Of a stretch of DNA of 64,000 nucleotides, positions 1,187-36,072 are shown piece after piece. The notes beneath the pieces are model-generated. The model was given only the letters and a program-made list of their open reading frames with translations, did no database searches and was not told where the DNA came from. This DNA is from Crocinitomicaceae bacterium. GTDB lineage: Bacteria > Bacteroidota > Bacteroidia > Flavobacteriales_D > Crocinitomicaceae. The stretch lies in the NCBI GenBank assembly GCA_021738405.1, contig JAIPCC010000002.1, forward strand, positions 1-64,000, in the 5' to 3' direction. Position 1 is the first letter of the stretch, and every line of letters starts with the position of its first letter. Made by a program: the position numbers and the translations under genes.

Positions 1187-1558
1187 ATGCAAGTCATCGC
1201 AAAACTGCTACAAAAACTACCGCTTCAGACCGGCCAAGGAAAAAACGGAACTTGGCAAAAACAGGACATCATTGTTGAAACCGATGGGCAATATCCGAAG
1301 AAAATTTGCCTGAGTTTGTGGGGAGATAAATTTTCGAATATCGCCCTGACCGAACAGCAAACCTACAAATTTGATATCGACCTGGAGAGCAGAGAATTTT
1401 CAGGGCGTTGGTTCACGGATGTCAAAGCATGGCGCATTGAGGCCTTTGATGCTTCGACTCAAGCGCAAACCACAAACAACACCAATAATTTGGGCAACCT
1501 GCCTCCTTTATCCGGATTTGATCAGGCGAATGACGATGACGGCGATTTACCTTTTTAA
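1187..1558 (+). CDS. DUF3127 OB-fold protein with SSB-like acidic tip
   Basis: A 123-residue protein of the DUF3127 family, which is common in Bacteroidota and related to OB-fold single-stranded-DNA-binding proteins. Family hallmarks visible are GQGKNGTWQKQDIIVET near residues 16-30, PKKICLSLWGDK, and ESREFSGRWFTDVKAWRIE around residues 69-87. A low-complexity linker rich in T, N and Q then leads to the last eight residues DDDGDLPF. This closely resembles the acidic C-terminal tip with which SSB recruits partner proteins. The start is placed at the ATG at 1187 because the family begins with this M-x-V/I-x-x-K-L pattern; the longer frame opens with TTG. Two hypothetical genes follow in the same direction with 8- and 18-base gaps. 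Confidence 0.85.
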   Translation: MQVIAKLLQKLPLQTGQGKNGTWQKQDIIVETDGQYPKKICLSLWGDKFSNIALTEQQTYKFDIDLESREFSGRWFTDVKAWRIEAFDASTQAQTTNNTNNLGNLPPLSGFDQANDDDGDLPF

Positions 1559-1566
1559 AAAATCTT

Positions 1567-2040
1567 ATGCTCGCTAAAACATTACAAACAGACGAACAAC
1601 AAATCCGCAAAAATGAAGACCTCCTCAACGACTTCCAGTTTGCTTTTTTGATCCAGAATATCAAGCGCATTACGGCCCTACTCGACCCTAAAGGGAAATT
1701 TTTTGGGAAGCAGAATATCCACTTTGGCAAATCAAAGCTCTACCAACTGATGCAGCACGATGGCAAGGAAGAAAGATGCTTTGCACAAATGTGTTCCAGG
1801 GGTTTTAGCCTCGATGAACAGCCGGGGCAAACCGTGCTTGAGTTTCGCTTTCCGATATTAGAGGAGGAGAACTTCTCTGCCTTTGAGCTTCACCGCGACC
1901 GCTTTGGAGAAGCGCCAGACCCAAAACTCGATGAAATTGTGCTGCGCTTTGCACTGGTACTCAAAGATGGTAAGATCAGTGAGATCAGGATACCGTCGAA
2001 AGTAGCGCAGTCTCTCGAACAATTCATCAACGAAAATTAA
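1567..2040 (+). CDS. hypothetical protein, 157 aa
   Basis: Unrecognised soluble protein of 157 residues. The N-terminal third is helical and charged (KTLQTDEQQIRKNEDLLNDF), the middle contains a basic stretch around KGKFFGKQNIHFGKSK, and the C-terminal part looks alpha/beta. No signal peptide, membrane helix or familiar catalytic motif is visible. It begins eight bases after the DUF3127 stop and is followed 18 bases later by the 161-aa gene, so the three are probably cotranscribed. Its job is therefore best guessed from its operon partner, a putative nucleic-acid-binding protein. Confidence 0.6.
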   Translation: MLAKTLQTDEQQIRKNEDLLNDFQFAFLIQNIKRITALLDPKGKFFGKQNIHFGKSKLYQLMQHDGKEERCFAQMCSRGFSLDEQPGQTVLEFRFPILEEENFSAFELHRDRFGEAPDPKLDEIVLRFALVLKDGKISEIRIPSKVAQSLEQFINEN

Positions 2041-2058
2041 ACAACAAAACCTCAAAAA

Positions 2059-2544
2059 ATGATAGAAGAAACTACCCTGGTAGCTCCAGAAACAACCGTG
2101 CACATTCAAATTACCAATGGCCAATTGGTGCGCAAGTGCATTCAAGACATGAACACCGCGGCACTTTATTACCTACTCGACGTAGAGCGCACCTACCAAG
2201 ATTGGCAGCGCAACGAATTTATCTTGAAACTCGAGTATATCATACGCCAATTCCAAGCCGACGGCGACACCTACCTCAATGCCGTTCAGGGCGCTTGCGG
2301 TGGGTCTTGCTCGAAAGGGCAGAACGGCTACCTCTTTATTGGCAACAACAGTAAAAATTACATGAATTTACTTTTTGTGGAAGACCAACTCGAGCTCCAA
2401 GATCTCTACGAATGCAGCACATTCCGGACAAATTTCAAGAACCTCGAACTCAAGAAACGCTATTACATCGATCCAAAAACACAAAGATTAATGCGCTTTT
2501 TTGCCGAGTTCAATGCGGCCATGGACTCCGATGATCCTTTTTAG
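2059..2544 (+). CDS. hypothetical protein with SSB-like C-terminal tip, 161 aa
   Basis: Unrecognised 161-residue protein. A helical N-terminal half (around DVERTYQDWQRNEFILKLEY) precedes a Cys/Gly element, GACGGSCSKGQNGYLFIGNN, near residues 78-97, and an alpha/beta remainder. The protein ends AAMDSDDPF, again like the acidic tip of SSB (ending DDDIPF in E. coli). Two genes of one short operon thus share this unusual ending. It starts at an ATG 18 bases after the preceding gene and is followed after 41 bases by a vWA gene. Binding of the tip to DNA-repair or replication partners is inference only. Confidence 0.6.
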   Translation: MIEETTLVAPETTVHIQITNGQLVRKCIQDMNTAALYYLLDVERTYQDWQRNEFILKLEYIIRQFQADGDTYLNAVQGACGGSCSKGQNGYLFIGNNSKNYMNLLFVEDQLELQDLYECSTFRTNFKNLELKKRYYIDPKTQRLMRFFAEFNAAMDSDDPF

Positions 2545-2585
2545 CAAAACCTTTTTTTAATTCAAAACCATCAAAAACAAACAAC

Positions 2586-3263
2586 ATGGAAACAACAGAC
2601 AACAACTTCACGAACAAAACCACATTGTATCATTTCATCATTGACCGCAGCGGCTCTATGCGCGGCATGGAAAACATGGTAGTGGGCGGCTACAACGAAC
2701 ACATCTCTGGTGTCAAGAACTTACAAGCAACGTACCCAGACCAAAAATTCTTGATGTCGCTAACGGTCTTTGACCACGAGATCACTACGCTGGTGCATCC
2801 GTCGCCAATAGAAGCGCTTCAAGAATTGCCCGCCGATGCATTTACGCCCCGCGGCTCCACGGCCCTACTCGACGCCATTGGCAAAAGCATTCACCTCATT
2901 GAATCTGAATTCACTAAGGCCATCCAAAACGACGAAATGAGTGTCGTAACGATCATCATTACCGACGGAGAAGAAAACTGCTCTCAATTTTTCAGCTACG
3001 AAGCCATTGCCAAACAAATCAAAGAAAGAGACGGAACCGGCAAATGGACCTTCAGCTTCATTGGCTGCGATTTTGACGCCCTGAACATCTCCGAAAGACT
3101 CAACATCAGACGTGAAAACGTACGCAATTTTGAAAAAAGAAATTATGACATCATGAGTGGCTTCATGGATGATTCCATGGCGCGTTACGCCGAGGCAAAG
3201 TCAAATGGAAGTTTTAAGAAGCGCGTCTTGAATTTCTTTTCTGATGAAGATTCAAAGTTTTAA
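2586..3263 (+). CDS. cytoplasmic vWA-domain protein (paralogue 1)
   Basis: A 225-residue protein consisting almost wholly of one von Willebrand factor A domain. The metal-ion-dependent adhesion site is intact: DRSGSM near residue 20, the Thr-containing loop PRGSTALLDAIGKS around residues 94-107, and the Asp motif ITDGEEN near residue 127. There is no signal peptide. The vWA fold mediates metal-dependent protein-protein contacts, and partners cannot be inferred from the sequence. The closest relative in the window is the paralogue at 4344-5006, similar along its whole length. The last 50 bases overlap the 3' end of the oppositely transcribed deacetylase gene. The C-terminal tail is basic, then acidic (KKRVLNFFSDEDSKF). 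Confidence 0.85.
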   Translation: METTDNNFTNKTTLYHFIIDRSGSMRGMENMVVGGYNEHISGVKNLQATYPDQKFLMSLTVFDHEITTLVHPSPIEALQELPADAFTPRGSTALLDAIGKSIHLIESEFTKAIQNDEMSVVTIIITDGEENCSQFFSYEAIAKQIKERDGTGKWTFSFIGCDFDALNISERLNIRRENVRNFEKRNYDIMSGFMDDSMARYAEAKSNGSFKKRVLNFFSDEDSKF

Positions 3264-4191
3264 GCTTTGTGACTGGTGTTTGACAGATCTTCTCGGAAAT
3301 GATCTGCAAGGACGAAAGATGTAAATCCAGCACCGCGTTGTAGTTATCGGCGCGGTAGCCGCCAAATAAGGCAAGCGTTACAGGTAGCGGCTTGCCTATT
3401 TTTTTGGAGACGGCGTTCACCCATTCGGAAAAGATTTCGGCGCAAAGCAGCCAGTGTTTGGTGTCGCAACCACCGCCGATGTCGTCGTCGGCATGTGAAT
3501 CTGCACCATGTGCAAACACTACATAATGGATCTTGCCTGCCAAAATGAGTTTTGCAACACGATCCAACCCATCTTGAAAAGATTGAATATAACTTTCATT
3601 ATAACCACTTGGGTTTACATTGCATCCTTTCGGAATGGCAAGGTTCAGTTTTGGTGCGAAAGCTCTGGTGTCTTCAATGCTGTTTCCGTAATGGCCATCT
3701 AGGTCAAAGTATGCGCCAGACACCCCAAATTCGTCGTAAAGTTTCAGCGCTGAAATAACCTGCCCAGAGAAAGTACAAAAACCCGAACCGCGATTCGGTT
3801 GTGCATGGTGCATGCCAGATACCGGAGCAAAACAAACTGTTTGTGGATGCAGTAGCGCATGTTTTTTGGCTTCATACAAAGCTGCGTTGGTGTAACCTAA
3901 GCTGTGCACTAAATTTTTGGACCACGGCAAGTTGTTTGAACGGTAGTTGCCCTCGCCATTGAAAACGTTATTGACGTACGACGGCGTGTGGGCCAACTCG
4001 AAATCGGCTTTTGTGTAGGGTTCGAATTGCGAAGTCCGCAAAAATAAATTATTCAAGCCCAAGTGCTCGATGCGCTGCATTAATAGATAAGGCTTGAGCG
4101 GTGATTTCGAAAAAGAGGCATTTTGAATGTTGTCAAAACACACTTGTTGATCGGTGTAAAACGTTCGGATTTTCTTGCTGCGTTGTTTCAT
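3214..4191 (-). CDS. histone deacetylase / acetylpolyamine deacetylase family protein
   Basis: A 325-residue zinc-dependent deacetylase of the arginase/HDAC fold. Motifs in order: the His-His dyad in SGMHHAQPN with GSGFCTF, the zinc-ligand block DLDGHYGN, the third ligand block GADSHADDDIGG, and the catalytic tyrosine in FGGY. All residues for catalysis appear present; the usual HH of the second block is HY here. Bacterial members deacetylate acetylpolyamines, acetoin-pathway proteins or small metabolites, and the substrate here is unknown. The start is taken at the ATG at 4191 because the longer frame begins with TTG. The gene is convergent with the upstream vWA gene (50-base overlap) and divergent from the second vWA gene. 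Confidence 0.85.
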   Translation of the reverse strand: MKQRSKKIRTFYTDQQVCFDNIQNASFSKSPLKPYLLMQRIEHLGLNNLFLRTSQFEPYTKADFELAHTPSYVNNVFNGEGNYRSNNLPWSKNLVHSLGYTNAALYEAKKHALLHPQTVCFAPVSGMHHAQPNRGSGFCTFSGQVISALKLYDEFGVSGAYFDLDGHYGNSIEDTRAFAPKLNLAIPKGCNVNPSGYNESYIQSFQDGLDRVAKLILAGKIHYVVFAHGADSHADDDIGGGCDTKHWLLCAEIFSEWVNAVSKKIGKPLPVTLALFGGYRADNYNAVLDLHLSSLQIISEKICQTPVTKLKTLNLHQKRNSRRAS

Positions 4192-4343
4192 GGCTTTGGG
4201 GTTTTTGAGATTGAACAATTGCGATTTCTCTGCAAAGTTCGGCAGACTTAGCCCCTCGAATGAAATAATTACAAGCTTGTAGAAAAGACGATTAGAGCAG
4301 AAATCGCCCGCAACTTTGCAGTGTAATTTTTAAAAACAACGCT

Positions 4344-5006
4344 ATGAAAAACAAAAAAACACTTTACCACTTTGTGATCGATCAAAGTGGCTCTATGGCA
4401 GGTATGGAAGCACTCGCTGTGGGAGGATTCAACACACAACTTCAAACCATAAAAACGCTGCAACAAGAAAAACCTGATGAAGAATTCTTGTGCTCACTCA
4501 CCCTGTTTAATGGCGAGGTGGTAGATGTACTCAGACAGGCCCCAGTAGAAAAACTAATTGCGCTAAGTGATGGATACTTCAGACCAATTGGCTCTACCTC
4601 CTTACTCGACGCTATCGGTAAAAGTATCTTTAACATCAAGCAGCAATTTGGCAATGACATTGCAGAAGACAAAATGTCAGTCGTGATGGTCATCATTACA
4701 GACGGACATGAAAACAGCTCTAGAATGTACACCTATCATGACATTGCGCAGTTAATCAAAACGTTAGAGGACACCGATAAATGGACTTTTAGTTTTCTTG
4801 GTGCAGATTTTGATGCGATCCACACGTCAAAAATGTTAAACATCCGTCGGGAGAATGCGATGAGCTACAGCAAAACCAGTTACTCCGAAATGATGTATGA
4901 CCTCAGCGACTCTATTAAGGCCTACTCCAATAGTAAGTCTGAAGGAAATTTGAAAAAAGACTTACTCGACATCTTTAAAAACAAAGACCGTCGCGAAGCC
5001 AAATAA
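4344..5006 (+). CDS. cytoplasmic vWA-domain protein (paralogue 2)
   Basis: A 220-residue single-domain vWA protein, a full-length paralogue of the gene at 2586-3263. They share DxSGSMxGME, the GGxN segment, GSTxLLDAIGKSI, the IITDGxEN motif, WTFSFxGxDFDA and LNIRREN. The metal site (DQSGSM near residue 14, ITDGHEN near residue 124) is complete. There is no export signal. The lysine-rich tail ends KKDLLDIFKNKDRREAK. The gene is followed after 19 bases by the 376-aa His/Cys-cluster gene, so the two are probably cotranscribed. vWA proteins often work with ATPases or kinases, but none is adjacent here. Confidence 0.85.
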   Translation: MKNKKTLYHFVIDQSGSMAGMEALAVGGFNTQLQTIKTLQQEKPDEEFLCSLTLFNGEVVDVLRQAPVEKLIALSDGYFRPIGSTSLLDAIGKSIFNIKQQFGNDIAEDKMSVVMVIITDGHENSSRMYTYHDIAQLIKTLEDTDKWTFSFLGADFDAIHTSKMLNIRRENAMSYSKTSYSEMMYDLSDSIKAYSNSKSEGNLKKDLLDIFKNKDRREAK

Positions 5007-5025
5007 TAAACTAAAACAAGCGCTT

Positions 5026-6156
5026 ATGAAGGTACATCTTATTCGATCTGAAGGATTTGATATTGAAGATTTCAATAATGTCTTCAATTTATTAAAAACC
5101 ACAAAAGGCCCAATAGAGTTTGTGCCTTCTGAGCCCATTGTTTTGCCAGAATCGGATAACTTTATCCATTATGAGGATTTAAAATCCTTTGAAAAAAAGC
5201 ATATGCCGGAATGGAGCATGGTGCACTCCTACATGCCGGAAGAACGTGTGTTTCCTATGACAAAGCCTGTTTTCACATGGGAACAACTCTTCCAGATTTG
5301 CCAAGATTTTCGTTCGGCAAACAACATTCCAGATACTGATTATGTGATGTTACTCACCGAACAAGCCAACGACCTGAACTGGTTTGGCGCGATTGATGAA
5401 AGTATGAAAAACTATTTTATTCATACGGCCGATTGGGATCACTATTTTCAGAATAATGTTGACGTGCGGTTCCCTATTGCCTATGAAATTGCCGTTTGGT
5501 TGCTGCGCAGTATGATGTTTAGAAATCGCATTGAAATTATCGACAACATTCACGAAAATGCCCAAGGCTGCATGATGGATTTTTGTCAAAATAAAAAAGA
5601 TATTACCATCAAAATGCGTACAGCTGATGTATGCCCGTCTTGTACTGAACTCATCACCAATCGTGACATCCGTAAAAACTACCTCAAACAACTTTTTGAC
5701 ACCATGGAAAGCATCCGAAAAAACTTGCTTTTCAGACAGCGCTCCGTATTATTGAACGAGCCAAGTAGCATGCAGATTCGTGGCTACAGAAAGGATATCT
5801 ACTTAAGAGATTTGGGAGACTTACAAATCAATCTCAACCCAAAAGAAAAGACCCTATATCTGCTGTATCTAAATCATCCGGAAGGAATCAATTTGAGCTG
5901 TTTGATTGACCACAAGGAAGAATTGACAGCTTATTATTCTATGCTTACTGTCTCAGGGTCAACTGAGCGAGTTGAATCAGTGATCAATAAAATGATCGAT
6001 TACAGGCAAGCGGTGGATGTGAGTATCCAATTTTCAAAAATTAAAAATAAGTTCACAACTGCACTTGGTGAATTTGGAAATCAATATGCCATAGAAAAAG
6101 TTGGCGATAAGCACAAAATTGTCCTCAATCGTGAACTTGTTCAAATTGTTGATTAA
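5026..6156 (+). CDS. unrecognised protein with His/Cys metal-type cluster, 376 aa
   Basis: No function can be named. The N-terminal about 240 residues end in a striking cluster: HENAQGCMMDFC (His176, Glu177, Cys182, Asp185, Cys187), then KMRTADVCPSC (Cys203, Cys206). This has the look of a structural or catalytic metal site. The segment before it (LLTEQANDLNWFGAIDE, then HTADWDHYF and FPIAYEIAVWLL) has the flavour of a degenerate metallopeptidase-like domain. Residues about 250-376 form a second, probably helical, domain (LNPKEKTLYLLYLNHPEGI). I recall similar segments in other Bacteroidota proteins. There is no signal peptide. It sits directly behind the second vWA gene and ahead of a Cys-rich small protein, which suggests a common module. 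Confidence 0.6.
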   Translation: MKVHLIRSEGFDIEDFNNVFNLLKTTKGPIEFVPSEPIVLPESDNFIHYEDLKSFEKKHMPEWSMVHSYMPEERVFPMTKPVFTWEQLFQICQDFRSANNIPDTDYVMLLTEQANDLNWFGAIDESMKNYFIHTADWDHYFQNNVDVRFPIAYEIAVWLLRSMMFRNRIEIIDNIHENAQGCMMDFCQNKKDITIKMRTADVCPSCTELITNRDIRKNYLKQLFDTMESIRKNLLFRQRSVLLNEPSSMQIRGYRKDIYLRDLGDLQINLNPKEKTLYLLYLNHPEGINLSCLIDHKEELTAYYSMLTVSGSTERVESVINKMIDYRQAVDVSIQFSKIKNKFTTALGEFGNQYAIEKVGDKHKIVLNRELVQIVD

Positions 6157-6176
6157 CGCTAAAATTATTTAAAATG
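6149..6176 (+). repeat. start-region direct repeat, copy 1
   Basis: TTGATTAACGC at 6149-6159, then an A/T-rich spacer and TTTAAAATG, where the ATG is the start of the 147-aa gene at 6174. The same arrangement occurs at 6734-6766 before the transglutaminase-like gene. The first copy overlaps the last codons of the preceding gene. Confidence 0.6.
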
Positions 6177-6617
6177 AATTGGAAAGTTGGAGATACGGCG
6201 GTGGCGATTTACGACATTTATAAGTCAGCTAAACATCAAAATGGAGCCAAACACTTCAAAGCAATTGCAAAAGGGACCAGACTTCAAGTTCAAGAAGTTG
6301 CCAAATTAGGCTGCAGTATTGTTATCGATGTAGGACTTAAAGAGGCACTCTCTATGAAAGAAGTTTATTGTATTTGTTGCAAATGCAAGCCTAGTCATGA
6401 AATTCCTGCGCAGCTGAATAAAGGCCAAAATCTTTTTCTAATTTCCAGATGGTTTGTGAAAGATAATGGCGATTCTGACGCGCTACAAAGAGCCTTAGAA
6501 GATGCCAAAAAAGATCCGCTTCAAAAGAGACAGCTATTTCTTAGAAACCCTCTTACAAGTCCAGAGATAAAAATAACTGCACCAAAACCTGTCAAGGAAG
6601 TATATTTGAAAACCTAG
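6174..6617 (+). CDS. hypothetical protein with CICCKC motif, 147 aa
   Basis: Unrecognised soluble protein. Residues 1-60 look like a small beta-barrel (MNWKVGDTAVAIYDI, GTRLQVQEVAKLGCSIVIDV), similar in flavour to SH3/KOW folds. A Cys-dense element, YCICCKCKPSH, follows near residues 64-74. The C-terminal half is basic and helical, then proline-containing. It begins 17 bases after the 376-aa gene and ends the apparent operon. The bases before its ATG (TTGATTAACGC, then TTTAAAATG) are closely repeated before the transglutaminase gene at 6764. Confidence 0.5.
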   Translation: MNWKVGDTAVAIYDIYKSAKHQNGAKHFKAIAKGTRLQVQEVAKLGCSIVIDVGLKEALSMKEVYCICCKCKPSHEIPAQLNKGQNLFLISRWFVKDNGDSDALQRALEDAKKDPLQKRQLFLRNPLTSPEIKITAPKPVKEVYLKT

Positions 6618-9136: not shown

Positions 9137-9376
9137 ATGAAAGTACTATCACTAAAACTAGACGAAGACATTTTTGACGAAACTGAAACGGTTTGCGAAC
9201 AAATAAAAAAAACGCGCAATCGTTACATCAACGAAGCACTTCATTTTTACAATCGCTTACAAAAAAGAAGAATCCTGGCGCAACAATTAGGATTTGAATC
9301 TCAATTAGTAAGCGATGAGTCTATGCTTGTGCTGCAAGAATTTGAAAGTTTCGAAGAAGATGCACAAAAAGAATGA
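9137..9376 (+). CDS. antitoxin of MazEF/PemIK-type pair
   Basis: A 79-residue protein with a ribbon-helix-helix-like N-terminus ([19 protein letters not shown], then [19 protein letters not shown]) and an acidic C-terminal tail ([16 protein letters not shown]) suited to wrapping a toxin. The downstream gene is a MazF-type toxin that begins inside this gene (17-base overlap), the typical coupling. By family knowledge it should repress the operon through the palindrome over its promoter. Confidence 0.8.
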
Positions 9377-9701
9377 AATTTGGTTAGCCAATTTAGATCC
9401 AAGGTTGGGAACAGAAGCTGGAAAAACTAGGCCTGTACTTATTGTTCAGACAGATTTACTCAACCGCATCCACCCCTCGACTTTGGTGTGTCCGCTTACT
9501 ACAAACATTCAACCTGAAAGTAAAATATTGCGTGTGCACCTTAAAAAAGGAGTCGGGAAAGTCGAAAAGGCAAGCGACATCATGATCGATCAACTCCGGG
9601 CTATTGACAATCATAGGTTGGTTAAAAAACTTGGAGAAGTTCCCGCGGAAATCGTTAAAAAAGTACAGCAAAATATCCTTTTGATCTTGGATGCGGATTA
9701 G
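9360..9701 (+). CDS. MazF/PemK-family endoribonuclease toxin
   Basis: A 113-residue MazF-family toxin. Visible motifs are the N-terminal [20 protein letters not shown], the VCPLTTNI strand and the ASDIMIDQLRAID segment that carries family active-site residues. Such enzymes cleave mRNA at short sequences and arrest growth until neutralised. The ATG at 9360 is chosen because MazF proteins start just ahead of the E-I/V-W motif; it overlaps the antitoxin gene by 17 bases. No truncation is evident. Confidence 0.9.
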   Translation: MHKKNEIWLANLDPRLGTEAGKTRPVLIVQTDLLNRIHPSTLVCPLTTNIQPESKILRVHLKKGVGKVEKASDIMIDQLRAIDNHRLVKKLGEVPAEIVKKVQQNILLILDAD

Positions 9702-10807: not shown

Positions 10808-11260
10808 ATGAAACGCATCAACGAATACAAAAAATTATTTGGCATCGACAAACCTATTGTTTTGGCCGAACTCAAACAGTCTTACCGCATTTTGGTCAAG
10901 CAATGGCACCCCGATAAGTTTCAGGATGGCGACCCACTCAAAGCAGAAGCCGAAGAAATGGGCCGACGCGTGGTAGATGGCTACCATTTTTTAGTGAGCA
11001 TTGCTCCCGAAACCAAAGCTGCGAACCTCGAAGATTACAACCGTACCATCAACGAATGCGGCATTGCCGATTTCCGTCACAAAGGCCTTCTTTTGGAAAT
11101 TACCTTTACCGATGGCTCTTGCTATGAGTACTTTGGCGTCAATGCCAATGTCTACAAAAAACTGATCAACGCCGACAAACAAGTGCGTTTCGCCAAGCGC
11201 TTCATCTACGAAAGCTTTTTGTACCGCCAGTCTAAGAAGGCGAGCACGGTGGAGGCTTAA
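10808..11260 (+). CDS. J-domain/KTSC-domain fusion protein
   Basis: A 150-residue two-domain protein. Residues 1-65 form a DnaJ-type J-domain with the diagnostic HPD in KQWHPDKF, so it should stimulate an Hsp70 ATPase. Residues about 85-145 match the KTSC domain (GLLLEITFTDGSCYEYFGV, then VYKKLINADKQVRFAKRFI), a small fold often linked with lysyl-tRNA synthetase or nucleic-acid-related proteins. The linker is short. It has its own promoter. The combination suggests delivery of an Hsp70 to a KTSC-bound client; that is inference. Confidence 0.85.
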   Translation: MKRINEYKKLFGIDKPIVLAELKQSYRILVKQWHPDKFQDGDPLKAEAEEMGRRVVDGYHFLVSIAPETKAANLEDYNRTINECGIADFRHKGLLLEITFTDGSCYEYFGVNANVYKKLINADKQVRFAKRFIYESFLYRQSKKASTVEA

Positions 11261-11366
11261 GTTTCATTTTCATCATTTTTAGCGTTATACTATTTTTTGA
11301 AATAAGGAGTTTATACATCAAACTTTTTATGGATGAAAACTTCGATTCAGGATACAGGAAAATATT

Positions 11367-11401
11367 TTTTACGTGATAATTTATTAAATTTGTACGTAAA
11401 A
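11367..11401. promoter_or_regulatory. palindromic operator and -7 box of the VapBC-type operon
   Basis: TTTTACGT (11367-11374) and ACGTAAAA (11394-11401) are perfect inverted 8-mers. Between them lies the -7 promoter element TAAATTTG (11385-11392). The ATG of the antitoxin follows at 11411. The position suggests antitoxin autorepression. Confidence 0.65.
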
Positions 11402-11410
11402 CAAATTGCG

Positions 11411-11650
11411 ATGTATACCAAACTCACGCTCAATATTGAAAAAGATACAGTTGCTAAGGCAAAGGTGTACGCCAAACAGCAAAACCAAAGTTTATCGAAA
11501 TTAATTGAAGCTTATTTGAAATCTTTGGCTCAAGAGCATGCTTCTTTAGGTGAGGTAAGCCCATTGGTCTCTCAATTAACAGGCCTTATACCCGCCCATT
11601 TCGACGAGAAAGAAGCGTATCAAAACTACCAAGCGCAAAAACACGCCTGA
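11411..11650 (+). CDS. VapB-type antitoxin (DUF6364-like)
   Basis: A 79-residue antitoxin-like protein. The N-terminal ribbon-helix-helix (KLTLNIEKDTVAKAKVYAKQ, then SLSKLIEAYLKSLA) is followed by a tail containing the GLIPAHFDEKEAYQNYQ type of segment common in antitoxins next to PIN toxins in Bacteroidota. The start is at the ATG at 11411, just behind a palindromic operator. The stop overlaps the start of the PIN-domain gene by one base (TGATG). Confidence 0.8.
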   Translation: MYTKLTLNIEKDTVAKAKVYAKQQNQSLSKLIEAYLKSLAQEHASLGEVSPLVSQLTGLIPAHFDEKEAYQNYQAQKHA

Positions 11651-12057
11651 TGCTCCCTATTTTCTTAGATACCAATGTAGTCATTGACTTATTGGCCAAA
11701 CGGGAGCCGTTTTACAAGGAAGCTCAAGTACTTTTTACACTTGCCGACAGCGGTCAGATTCAACTTCAAATTTCGGCACTTAGCTTTGCCAATGCAAGTT
11801 ATGCCCTCGCCAAACATTACCCGGTTGCTGATGCGAAAAAATACTTACAACAATTCAAAGTTTTGGTAACTATTTTACCGCTCGATGACAAAGCTATTGA
11901 ATTGGCTCTTGCCTCTGAATTTCAGGATATCGAAGACGGATTTCAGTATTTTATAGCGCAAGCTGGTGGTGCTGGTGTAATTGTAACGCGCAACAAAAAA
12001 GACTTCAAGAAGTCGGAGATACCAGTCATGACGCCTACAGAATTTCTGAAGCGTTGA
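11650..12057 (+). CDS. PIN-domain toxin (VapC-like)
   Basis: A 135-residue PIN-domain ribonuclease. The acidic active-site residues are visible: Asp in FLDTNVVIDLL at the N-terminus, Glu in FKVLVTILPLDDKAIELAL further on, and Asp in FQDIEDGFQYF near residue 98, followed by the VTRNKKDF motif. VapC toxins cleave tRNA or rRNA and are held inactive by the cotranscribed antitoxin. Its stop lies ten bases from the convergent collar-protein gene. Confidence 0.88.
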   Translation: MLPIFLDTNVVIDLLAKREPFYKEAQVLFTLADSGQIQLQISALSFANASYALAKHYPVADAKKYLQQFKVLVTILPLDDKAIELALASEFQDIEDGFQYFIAQAGGAGVIVTRNKKDFKKSEIPVMTPTEFLKR

Positions 12058-34935: not shown

Positions 34936-36030
34936 TCAATCAAAGCCGAGCGTTTTGGCGTTATTGCGCAGCGAGGTGGCCACGGCTGTACCGAAATCGT
35001 CGGGTTTGGCTTGGGTTGTTTTGGCGTTTTCAGCTTCGATGTACTTACTGCGCGCTGTCTCCAAACGCGCCATTTCTTTTTGAATTGCGCTGCGCTCCTC
35101 AGTTTTTTGCTTGACAAATGCCTGGCGCTGATCCACGCTCATGCCTTTCATTTCAGCCGGCAACTCCTCCTCTTTGAGCAAAGCAATTTTCGTTGAATCG
35201 GCTAAATTGGCATCCACAATATCCCATTTTTCATTTTTATAACTCGACTTAGACTTCACTAAATAACGCTCAGTTTCGACGGATTTTGAAATACCCCATG
35301 CATTGGCATCCTGAGATAGTTGCTTGGACTTCGATTCAATTGCCACGGATCCATAACCGATGTAGGTGTTGTTCAGTAGGCGATTTTGCTCGATAATTTG
35401 GTCGTCAAATGGAGTTTCAATTTGTTTAATGGCAGCATCTGAATTAATGTTGAAAAAATCTCCTTTAGCGCATTCGGCACCTTCTTTCCAACCTAAATTG
35501 ATGCCTTGCATTCGGTCTCCACAAAAAATAGTGCTTACCAAAACGTGTTTCTCGGCAGCTAGTTCGCAAGCAACAGCTGTTGAAACAGATCCTTGCTTAA
35601 AAGATTCATTGCCAGCAATATAAATCAATTTAAGATCTTGTGGGCTATTGGACCAATTGAGTTGTTTGAGCGAAGCAACAATGACTGCAGGACAATATTC
35701 TTCGCCACCACTGGTGCGCAGGCCAAAGAGTTTTTCAGAGACCAAATCGAGGTCTGTTGAAAAATCGAGTTGCTTTCGGATGTAGTTTTGAGTAGCTGAA
35801 ATAGTGGAATTGCCGTAGTCGTACATGGCAATTTCTAAGGTAACCGGAGCGCCTTGATAGGTCAGTGTGGAAGCTTCATTGACGATGGCCCAAATGCGGG
35901 CTTTCGCCTGATTGAGCAAACCATCCATGCTATTTGAAGTATCGAAAAGAATGACGAGTTGTACCTTTCTTTGTGCGAAAGTCTGCAGCGAAAAAGAAAG
36001 AAGTAAGCAGAGTAAAAAGCGTTTTTTCAT
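34936..36030 (-). CDS. exported vWA-domain protein
   Basis: A 364-residue exported protein. The signal peptide MKKRFLLCLLLSFSLQTFAQ is followed by a vWA domain with the metal motif DTSNSM (D-x-S-x-S present; the usual G is N). The C-terminal about 130 residues are charged and helical, probably a coiled coil (around KQKTEERSAIQKEMARLETA). It is not close to the two cytoplasmic vWA proteins near 2.6-5 kb. It may mediate metal-dependent adhesion in the periplasm or at the surface. The start is placed at the signal-peptide ATG. Confidence 0.8.
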   Translation of the reverse strand: MKKRFLLCLLLSFSLQTFAQRKVQLVILFDTSNSMDGLLNQAKARIWAIVNEASTLTYQGAPVTLEIAMYDYGNSTISATQNYIRKQLDFSTDLDLVSEKLFGLRTSGGEEYCPAVIVASLKQLNWSNSPQDLKLIYIAGNESFKQGSVSTAVACELAAEKHVLVSTIFCGDRMQGINLGWKEGAECAKGDFFNINSDAAIKQIETPFDDQIIEQNRLLNNTYIGYGSVAIESKSKQLSQDANAWGISKSVETERYLVKSKSSYKNEKWDIVDANLADSTKIALLKEEELPAEMKGMSVDQRQAFVKQKTEERSAIQKEMARLETARSKYIEAENAKTTQAKPDDFGTAVATSLRNNAKTLGFD

Positions 36031-36072
36031 GGATAAATTTTGGCTCACACAGCCAAAATGATGCCAAAAATC

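Follow-up and report, generated by a model that had tools for sequence, protein, structure and literature searches.

Do eight adjacent genes of mostly hypothetical function form one working unit, and what would such a unit do? The question is raised by positions 1187–6617 of a 64,000-nucleotide stretch of DNA (contig JAIPCC010000002.1, positions 1 to 64,000; here called the window), which is part of the 2.16-Mb genome of a Crocinitomicaceae bacterium (Bacteroidota). A sequence-only reading had proposed an undescribed eight-gene module, in which two von Willebrand factor type A (vWA) proteins serve as scaffolds of a cytoplasmic DNA-related complex and a histone deacetylase (HDAC)-family enzyme acts as its modifier. 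The eight open reading frames (ORFs) were confirmed at their positions, with gaps of 8, 18 and 41 bp among the genes at 1187–3263 and of 19 and 17 bp among those at 4344–6617 (Table 1). That a vWA protein, a His/Cys-cluster protein of 376 amino acids (aa) and the HDAC-like protein belong together was upheld; one eight-gene complex was not. The vWA gene and a predicted fusion of a dead archaemetzincin-type domain with a DNA-binding domain are a previously undescribed two-gene bacterial cassette. This cassette is probably a self-regulated sensor-regulator that controls itself and the HDAC-like deacetylase gene. All evidence is computational and comes from gene pairing, predicted folds, motif conservation and covariation, the cassette-linked location of a palindromic site, and the linkage of this site to the HDAC-like gene.

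A conserved gene pair and its palindromic site

Relatives were collected with the 376-aa protein as bait in about 400 sampled genomes of the order; start codons were refined by homology, the loci are fragmentary, and the counts include related genomes. The 376-aa family was present in 86 of 399 genomes, with a patchy distribution and changing locations. One copy, in genome G653 (locus L161), has decayed and carries ten in-frame stop codons. The closest related region (L028) lies in a metagenome-assembled genome labelled Cryomorphaceae, and its 376-aa protein is 82% identical.

Seventy-four loci were testable, that is, they carried a 376-aa family gene of at least 300 aa and enough upstream sequence. 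A vWA gene lay directly upstream on the same strand in 66 of them, mostly with gaps of −8 to 26 bp; among the other eight, it lay downstream in two (L069, L070) and divergent in one (L144). Co-occurrence was counted in a fixed set of 150 genomes: the vWA family was present in 20 of the 25 that carry the 376-aa gene and in 1 of the 125 that lack it. Since these genomes are related, Fisher p-values overstate their independence and the counts are to be read as a strong association, not as independent trials. This neighbourhood comparison contradicts the eight-gene unit. The conserved core is two genes, the vWA gene at 4344 and the 376-aa gene, which are the only broadly conserved part of the eight, and the first four genes lack the palindromic site described below.

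No common downstream effector gene was found in these loci; the downstream genes vary, and a HAD-like gene recurs in a few. A small accessory family (WYIDFP...GAD..LD...VWLC.VT..FG) recurs beside the cassette (L068:9481–9828, L053:11018–11506, L150:107–673 and L159:2087–2464). The pair was not described in the openly searchable literature, a coverage that omits most subscription papers and bioRxiv, and no Pfam, NCBIfam or PADLOC match names a vWA/376-aa/HDAC module.

The DxSxS...T...D motif is invariant in 17 vWA relatives. It is shared by the two window vWA proteins, which are 48% identical, as the paralogy read earlier implied. Pfam VWA matches are weak for both (0.009 and 5e-4), and phrog_7371 matches are strong (2e-29 and 8e-34).

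A palindrome was first noticed upstream of the vWA gene. Its consensus is TRCAAGSTTGYA, and the window copy is given in Table 1. Zero-mismatch copies of the consensus were found at 53 of the 73 cassette vWA genes (a count that leaves out a duplicate locus and second-type vWA genes), nearly all 50–81 bp upstream of the start. This position is upstream of the likely core promoter and would suit an activator. At about ten further cassettes the site takes a related, mostly symmetric form, GACAAGCTTGTC and AACAAGGTTGTC among them, and lies about equally far from the start. Of 63 sites, 59 have complementary bases at positions 3 and 12, against 35.7 expected, with 18 two-sided changes.

The location of the site is linked to the cassette. 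In a first comparison, random 220-bp segments drawn from these loci matched TGCAAGCTTGCA with two mismatches or fewer in only about 2% of cases, and the operators themselves probably account for some of these. The pattern is rare in 17 genomes (1–6 places or strands, counted per strand) and elsewhere occurs at about the frequency of the reversed control; five additional genomic copies that were inspected all lie inside unrelated ORFs. vWA genes without an adjoining 376-aa gene (L192, L201, L189 and window 2586) have no site. Of the 867 remaining genes of these loci, just four are preceded by an independent zero-mismatch site: two in L127 (the HDAC gene and the relative of the 147-aa gene, which is divergent), one in L161 (an accessory gene, DUFx) and one in L133, where it directly follows the 376-aa gene. 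An inverted repeat, CTGCAAAGTT / AACTTTGCAG, at 4230–4239 and 4312–4321 brackets the operator; apart from the window, only the nearest relative, L028, was seen to have it. At L159:2497–4628, the winged helix is fused to a different N-terminal domain in a gene that is divergent from a vWA gene, with operator variants.

The HDAC-like protein reached 73 bits against PF00850 (cut-off 28). Its complete active site, noted earlier, is borne out by the motifs GMHHA, DLDGH, HGADSH and GGY, which by reading represent the His-His, Asp-x-His and Asp ligands and the Tyr. The family occurred in 6/25 genomes of the 150-genome sample with the 376-aa gene versus 1/125 without it. In most same-family relatives that have the HDAC gene, it is divergent from the vWA gene with the operator in between. 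In L127, the HDAC gene lies on the far side of the cassette and has its own site, which is common to the 147-aa relative and lies 92 bp upstream of the latter. A prediction set beforehand also held in both halves: the HDAC gene of G142, on another contig than the cassette, has the site, and that of G046, a genome in which no cassette was found, has none. A relocated HDAC gene with its own operator copy was thus seen in two genomes (L127, G142). Because of the operator linkage in L127 and the outcome for G142 and G046, the HDAC-like gene is a predicted member of the operator regulon. The 147-aa gene is a likely further member, judged by the one relative and its 17-bp distance, and is probably cotranscribed with the 376-aa gene.

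Predicted folds of the 376-aa protein

The AlphaFold2 model of the 376-aa protein had a predicted local distance difference test (pLDDT) score of 87. In Foldseek searches of the PDB, archaemetzincins ranked first (3lmc, E 2.3e-4, probability 1.0; 3zvs, E 2e-3, TM-score 0.69 of target), and other metzincins ranked next. The His/Cys cluster seen in the sequence-only reading is an invariant H-x4-GC-x4-C-x15-C-x2-C motif plus D185 and D201; the invariant residues in 25 aligned relatives are H176, G181, C182, D185, C187, D201, C203 and C206. The published archaemetzincin motif is HEXXHXXGXXHCX4CXMX17CXXC (PMC3427221). A single pairwise hhalign comparison with bona fide M54 proteins gave a short, weak match (E 0.013), in which H176 corresponds to the third catalytic His and C182, C203 and C206 align to three of the Cys4 zinc ligands, with the first Cys missing and C187 extra. 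None of the 25 aligned members has the HExxH of the HEXXHXXGXXH catalytic zinc motif, and the catalytic Glu is lost with it. In the model, the N-terminal half thus has an archaemetzincin fold without the HExxH catalytic centre but with the Cys/His motif.

The C-terminal half, modelled separately with AlphaFold2, had a pLDDT of 88. Its top seven PDB matches in Foldseek were all OmpR/PhoB/ToxR-type DNA-binding domains or regulators, with a best probability of 0.97. It is homologous to the C-terminus of CARF5 (hhalign E 1.1e-5), and 12 of the 25 family members match CARF5 (PADLOC PDLC01904; best 7e-9). That profile covers only residues 216–366, and the CARF sensor domain is absent from the 376-aa protein. 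No receiver domain lies upstream of the winged helix; the N-terminal half is metzincin-like instead. The C-terminal half is modelled as an OmpR/PhoB-type winged helix, with weaker scores than those behind the N-terminal fold. Together, the modelled metzincin fold and winged helix point to regulation rather than to the scaffolded DNA-related complex that had been proposed.

Several known systems resemble parts of this protein. The M54 archaemetzincins (PF07998) match it in the predicted fold and in some of the His/Met-turn/Cys motif, but the 376-aa protein has no HExxH, no first Cys of the Cys4 site and no Pfam match above the cut-off. CarG of Myxococcus xanthus is a proteolytically inactive archaemetzincin in transcription regulation (PMC3427221). 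In CarG, Gln replaces the Glu of HEXXH and the protein acts with CarD, whereas the 376-aa protein has lost HExxH, carries a fused winged helix and is paired with a vWA protein. CARF5 and CARF-winged-helix regulators such as Csa3 have the same sensor plus winged-helix layout, and the C-terminal domain of CARF5 is homologous; here, however, the sensor has an archaemetzincin fold, no CRISPR link was seen, and the partner is a vWA protein. OmpR/PhoB-family regulators are alike in the predicted winged-helix fold, but the 376-aa protein lacks their receiver domain and has an extra inserted helix. In vWA-MoxR ternary conflict systems (PMC7159879, PMC8195603), a vWA protein is likewise paired with a possible sensor. 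As the earlier reading observed, no MoxR-like ATPase, kinase or phosphatase is found among the eight window proteins; the vWA protein here is small and stand-alone, and the regulator has its own operator. MoxR-type AAA+ ATPases were also not among the top families of a neighbour tally.

A proposed switch, its context and its alternatives

In the proposed cassette model, the 376-aa protein would bind TRCAAGSTTGYA as a dimer through its C-terminal winged helix. It would control its own operon, comprising the vWA gene, itself and, here, probably the 147-aa gene, and also the divergent HDAC-like gene. Because HExxH is lost and the presumed Cys/His metal-binding motif is kept, the dead metzincin domain probably works not as a protease but in signal sensing or partner docking. 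The vWA protein, with its metal-ion-dependent site intact, would be the likely partner that gates DNA binding, through a presumed contact with the metzincin domain. The identity of the binder, its dimerisation, the vWA–metzincin contact, the direction of regulation and the trigger are the parts of the model that we infer. The model would turn a list of hypothetical proteins into a testable circuit of one protein, one 12-bp operator and two divergent targets. It also gives a predicted function to a vWA/hypothetical pair present in about a fifth of the sampled genomes of the order, and ties a bacterial HDAC-like enzyme to a dedicated, predicted switch.

Relatives of the two domain halves were found in other arrangements. 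A metzincin-like N-terminal domain is fused to TIR (PF13676, 4e-28) at L080:6929–8029 (G320). At L079:7152–8360 (G234), an Mrr-type nuclease domain, an M54-like region and a helix-turn-helix lie in one protein, whose PF07998 match (6.7e-4) is below the cut-off. Stand-alone genes at L075:7249–7983, L077:6806–7531 and L078:7388–8107, from genomes G289, G456 and G316, encode a metzincin-like domain followed, by reading, by two transmembrane (TM) helices. ThsB_TIR-like, DUF4231/SLATT_1 and metzincin-like genes stand in a row at L073:7566–10762 (G279). The winged-helix C-terminus recurs in a 332-aa protein (L227:592–1590) just upstream of an HsdR-like gene. These links suggest a conflict-system ancestry, not phage defence by this cassette.

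Parts of the cassette are related to bacterial immune proteins, and a defence-type role is plausible. The biological context that we favour is a reaction to phage or mobile elements, with a confidence that falls somewhat short of even. PADLOC detected no anti-phage system component among the window proteins beyond the CARF5 match of the 376-aa C-terminus and a weak Cas11e match. The vWA protein resembles vWA proteins in 211 phage records; plasmids gave two matches to the 376-aa protein, both C-terminal only, and Foldseek against viral structures gave no significant match. A phage origin was considered and rejected: tblastn detected no 376-aa relative in phages and none was confirmed in viral contigs, which weighs against a defence role together with the many housekeeping genes among the cassette neighbours. 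The Pfam/PADLOC neighbour tally was mixed, had no background set and was not used as evidence; it also gives defence no help. More tentatively still, degenerate archaemetzincin-fold domains may be an unrecognised class of modular sensors in bacterial conflict systems, wired to winged helix plus vWA, TIR, Mrr or two-TM modules and found near SLATT/ThsB-like genes, with the cassette here controlling a protein or metabolite deacetylase as effector. If true, an ancient protease fold would have been reused as a signal sensor joined to immunity-type effectors.

The absence from phages and viral contigs and the housekeeping neighbours would fit an ordinary autoregulated one-component switch for the deacetylase, serving metal, oxidative or polyamine stress or metabolism and not defence. 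Small acetylated metabolites are frequent substrates of HDAC-family enzymes, which also suits this reading. It is a serious possibility, held at clearly less than an even chance, and it leaves less well explained the patchy distribution, the changing locations, the decayed copy and the fusions of related halves with TIR, Mrr, two-TM and CARF modules. It is unlikely that another host transcription factor reads the operator and the 376-aa protein is merely downstream. The site goes with the cassette, is missing in front of vWA genes that have no 376-aa partner and occurs at about chance level elsewhere in the genomes, and the 376-aa protein is the only cassette protein with a predicted DNA-binding fold. 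On the other side, the divergent cassettes L051, L146, L147, L149 and L029 have the 376-aa gene and no recognisable site, and the winged-helix residues show no clear covariation with the operator bases; because of the latter, the case for the 376-aa protein as binder depends on the cassette specificity of the site. Both points weigh against the cassette model too, as do four others. The site was taken as the best of about 290 positions, so that its CAA/TTG invariance is partly built in; no PF07998 match above the cut-off was found among the 25 members; the M54 sequence alignment is marginal at the E-value given above; and the best winged-helix E-value in Foldseek is 0.056.

The original idea of one eight-gene complex with vWA scaffolds and a deacetylase modifier now appears improbable. 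Several close relatives do have the 157-aa and 161-aa genes in the vicinity of the cassette, and the 161-aa family occurred in 7/25 genomes of the 150-genome sample with the 376-aa gene versus 1/125 without it. In G562 (L160), the gene for a protein that shares the 376-aa winged-helix domain has a DUF3127 gene and a 161-aa-like gene nearby. The tips resembling those of single-stranded DNA-binding protein (SSB) were also found, as read before, on the DUF3127 (DDDGDLPF) and 161-aa (DSDDPF) proteins. Nevertheless, the genes at 1187–3263 (DUF3127, 157-aa, 161-aa and second vWA) have no operator site and are missing from most cassette loci, and the second vWA (2586) has no counterpart at most cassettes. 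Least probable of all is that the metzincin-like domain has remained an enzyme, its metal site rearranged, and acts as an effector protease. Its invariant His, Cys and Asp residues and the narrow, poorly understood specificity of archaemetzincins (PMC3427221) leave room for this, and the absence of HExxH with its catalytic Glu throughout the aligned family argues against it.

The genes at 1187–3263 and other window features

The genes at 1187–3263 are a separate unit with weaker links to the cassette. A 157-aa family gene lies close to a vWA gene at L192:1498–3096 in G109, whose genome lacks the 376-aa gene, and the window 157-aa protein gave the weak Cas11e match in PADLOC (0.02). Two distant relatives of the 161-aa protein end in the SSB-like tips EDDVPF and MDDPPF. 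The HDAC-like gene and the vWA gene at 2586–3263 overlap by 50 bp at their 3' ends.

Table 1. Positions of the eight genes, the predicted operator and domains of the 376-aa protein in the window.
Feature	Position	Strand	Remarks
DUF3127 / phage-SSB-like protein (phrog_4932)	1187–1558	+	Pfam DUF3127 E 4e-27; separate unit, without operator
157-aa protein	1567–2040	+	Separate unit
161-aa protein, SSB-tip-like end	2059–2544	+	Separate unit
Second vWA paralogue	2586–3263	+	Without operator; no 376-aa family gene directly adjoining
HDAC-family deacetylase-like protein	3214–4191	-	PF00850 Hist_deacetyl E 2.5e-20; divergent from vWA 4344; predicted regulon member
Palindromic operator (predicted) TACAAGCTTGTA	4270–4281	.	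In the HDAC–vWA intergenic region; distance to the start 62 bp (vWA) and 78 bp (HDAC)
vWA protein, 220 aa, intact MIDAS-type motif	4344–5006	+	First gene of conserved pair
376-aa protein: archaemetzincin-fold pseudo-protease domain + OmpR/PhoB-type winged helix (modelled)	5026–6156	+	
Zinc-knuckle-like motif H176...C182...C187...C203xxC206	5551–5643	+	Invariant alignment columns; hhalign to M54
C-terminal winged-helix domain (modelled), residues 216–376	5671–6153	+	AlphaFold2 model, Foldseek, CARF5 homology
147-aa CICCKC protein	6174–6617	+	17 bp downstream of 376-aa gene; likely regulon member

Further genes of the window were noted in passing. A MazF/PemK-like toxin gene preceded by a small gene (9137–9701) and a PIN-domain pair (11333–12057) were recognised by reading. 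A protein with DnaJ-like and KTSC domains is encoded at 10808–11260, and a larger vWA-like protein, apparently secreted and in an unrelated context, at 34936–36048.

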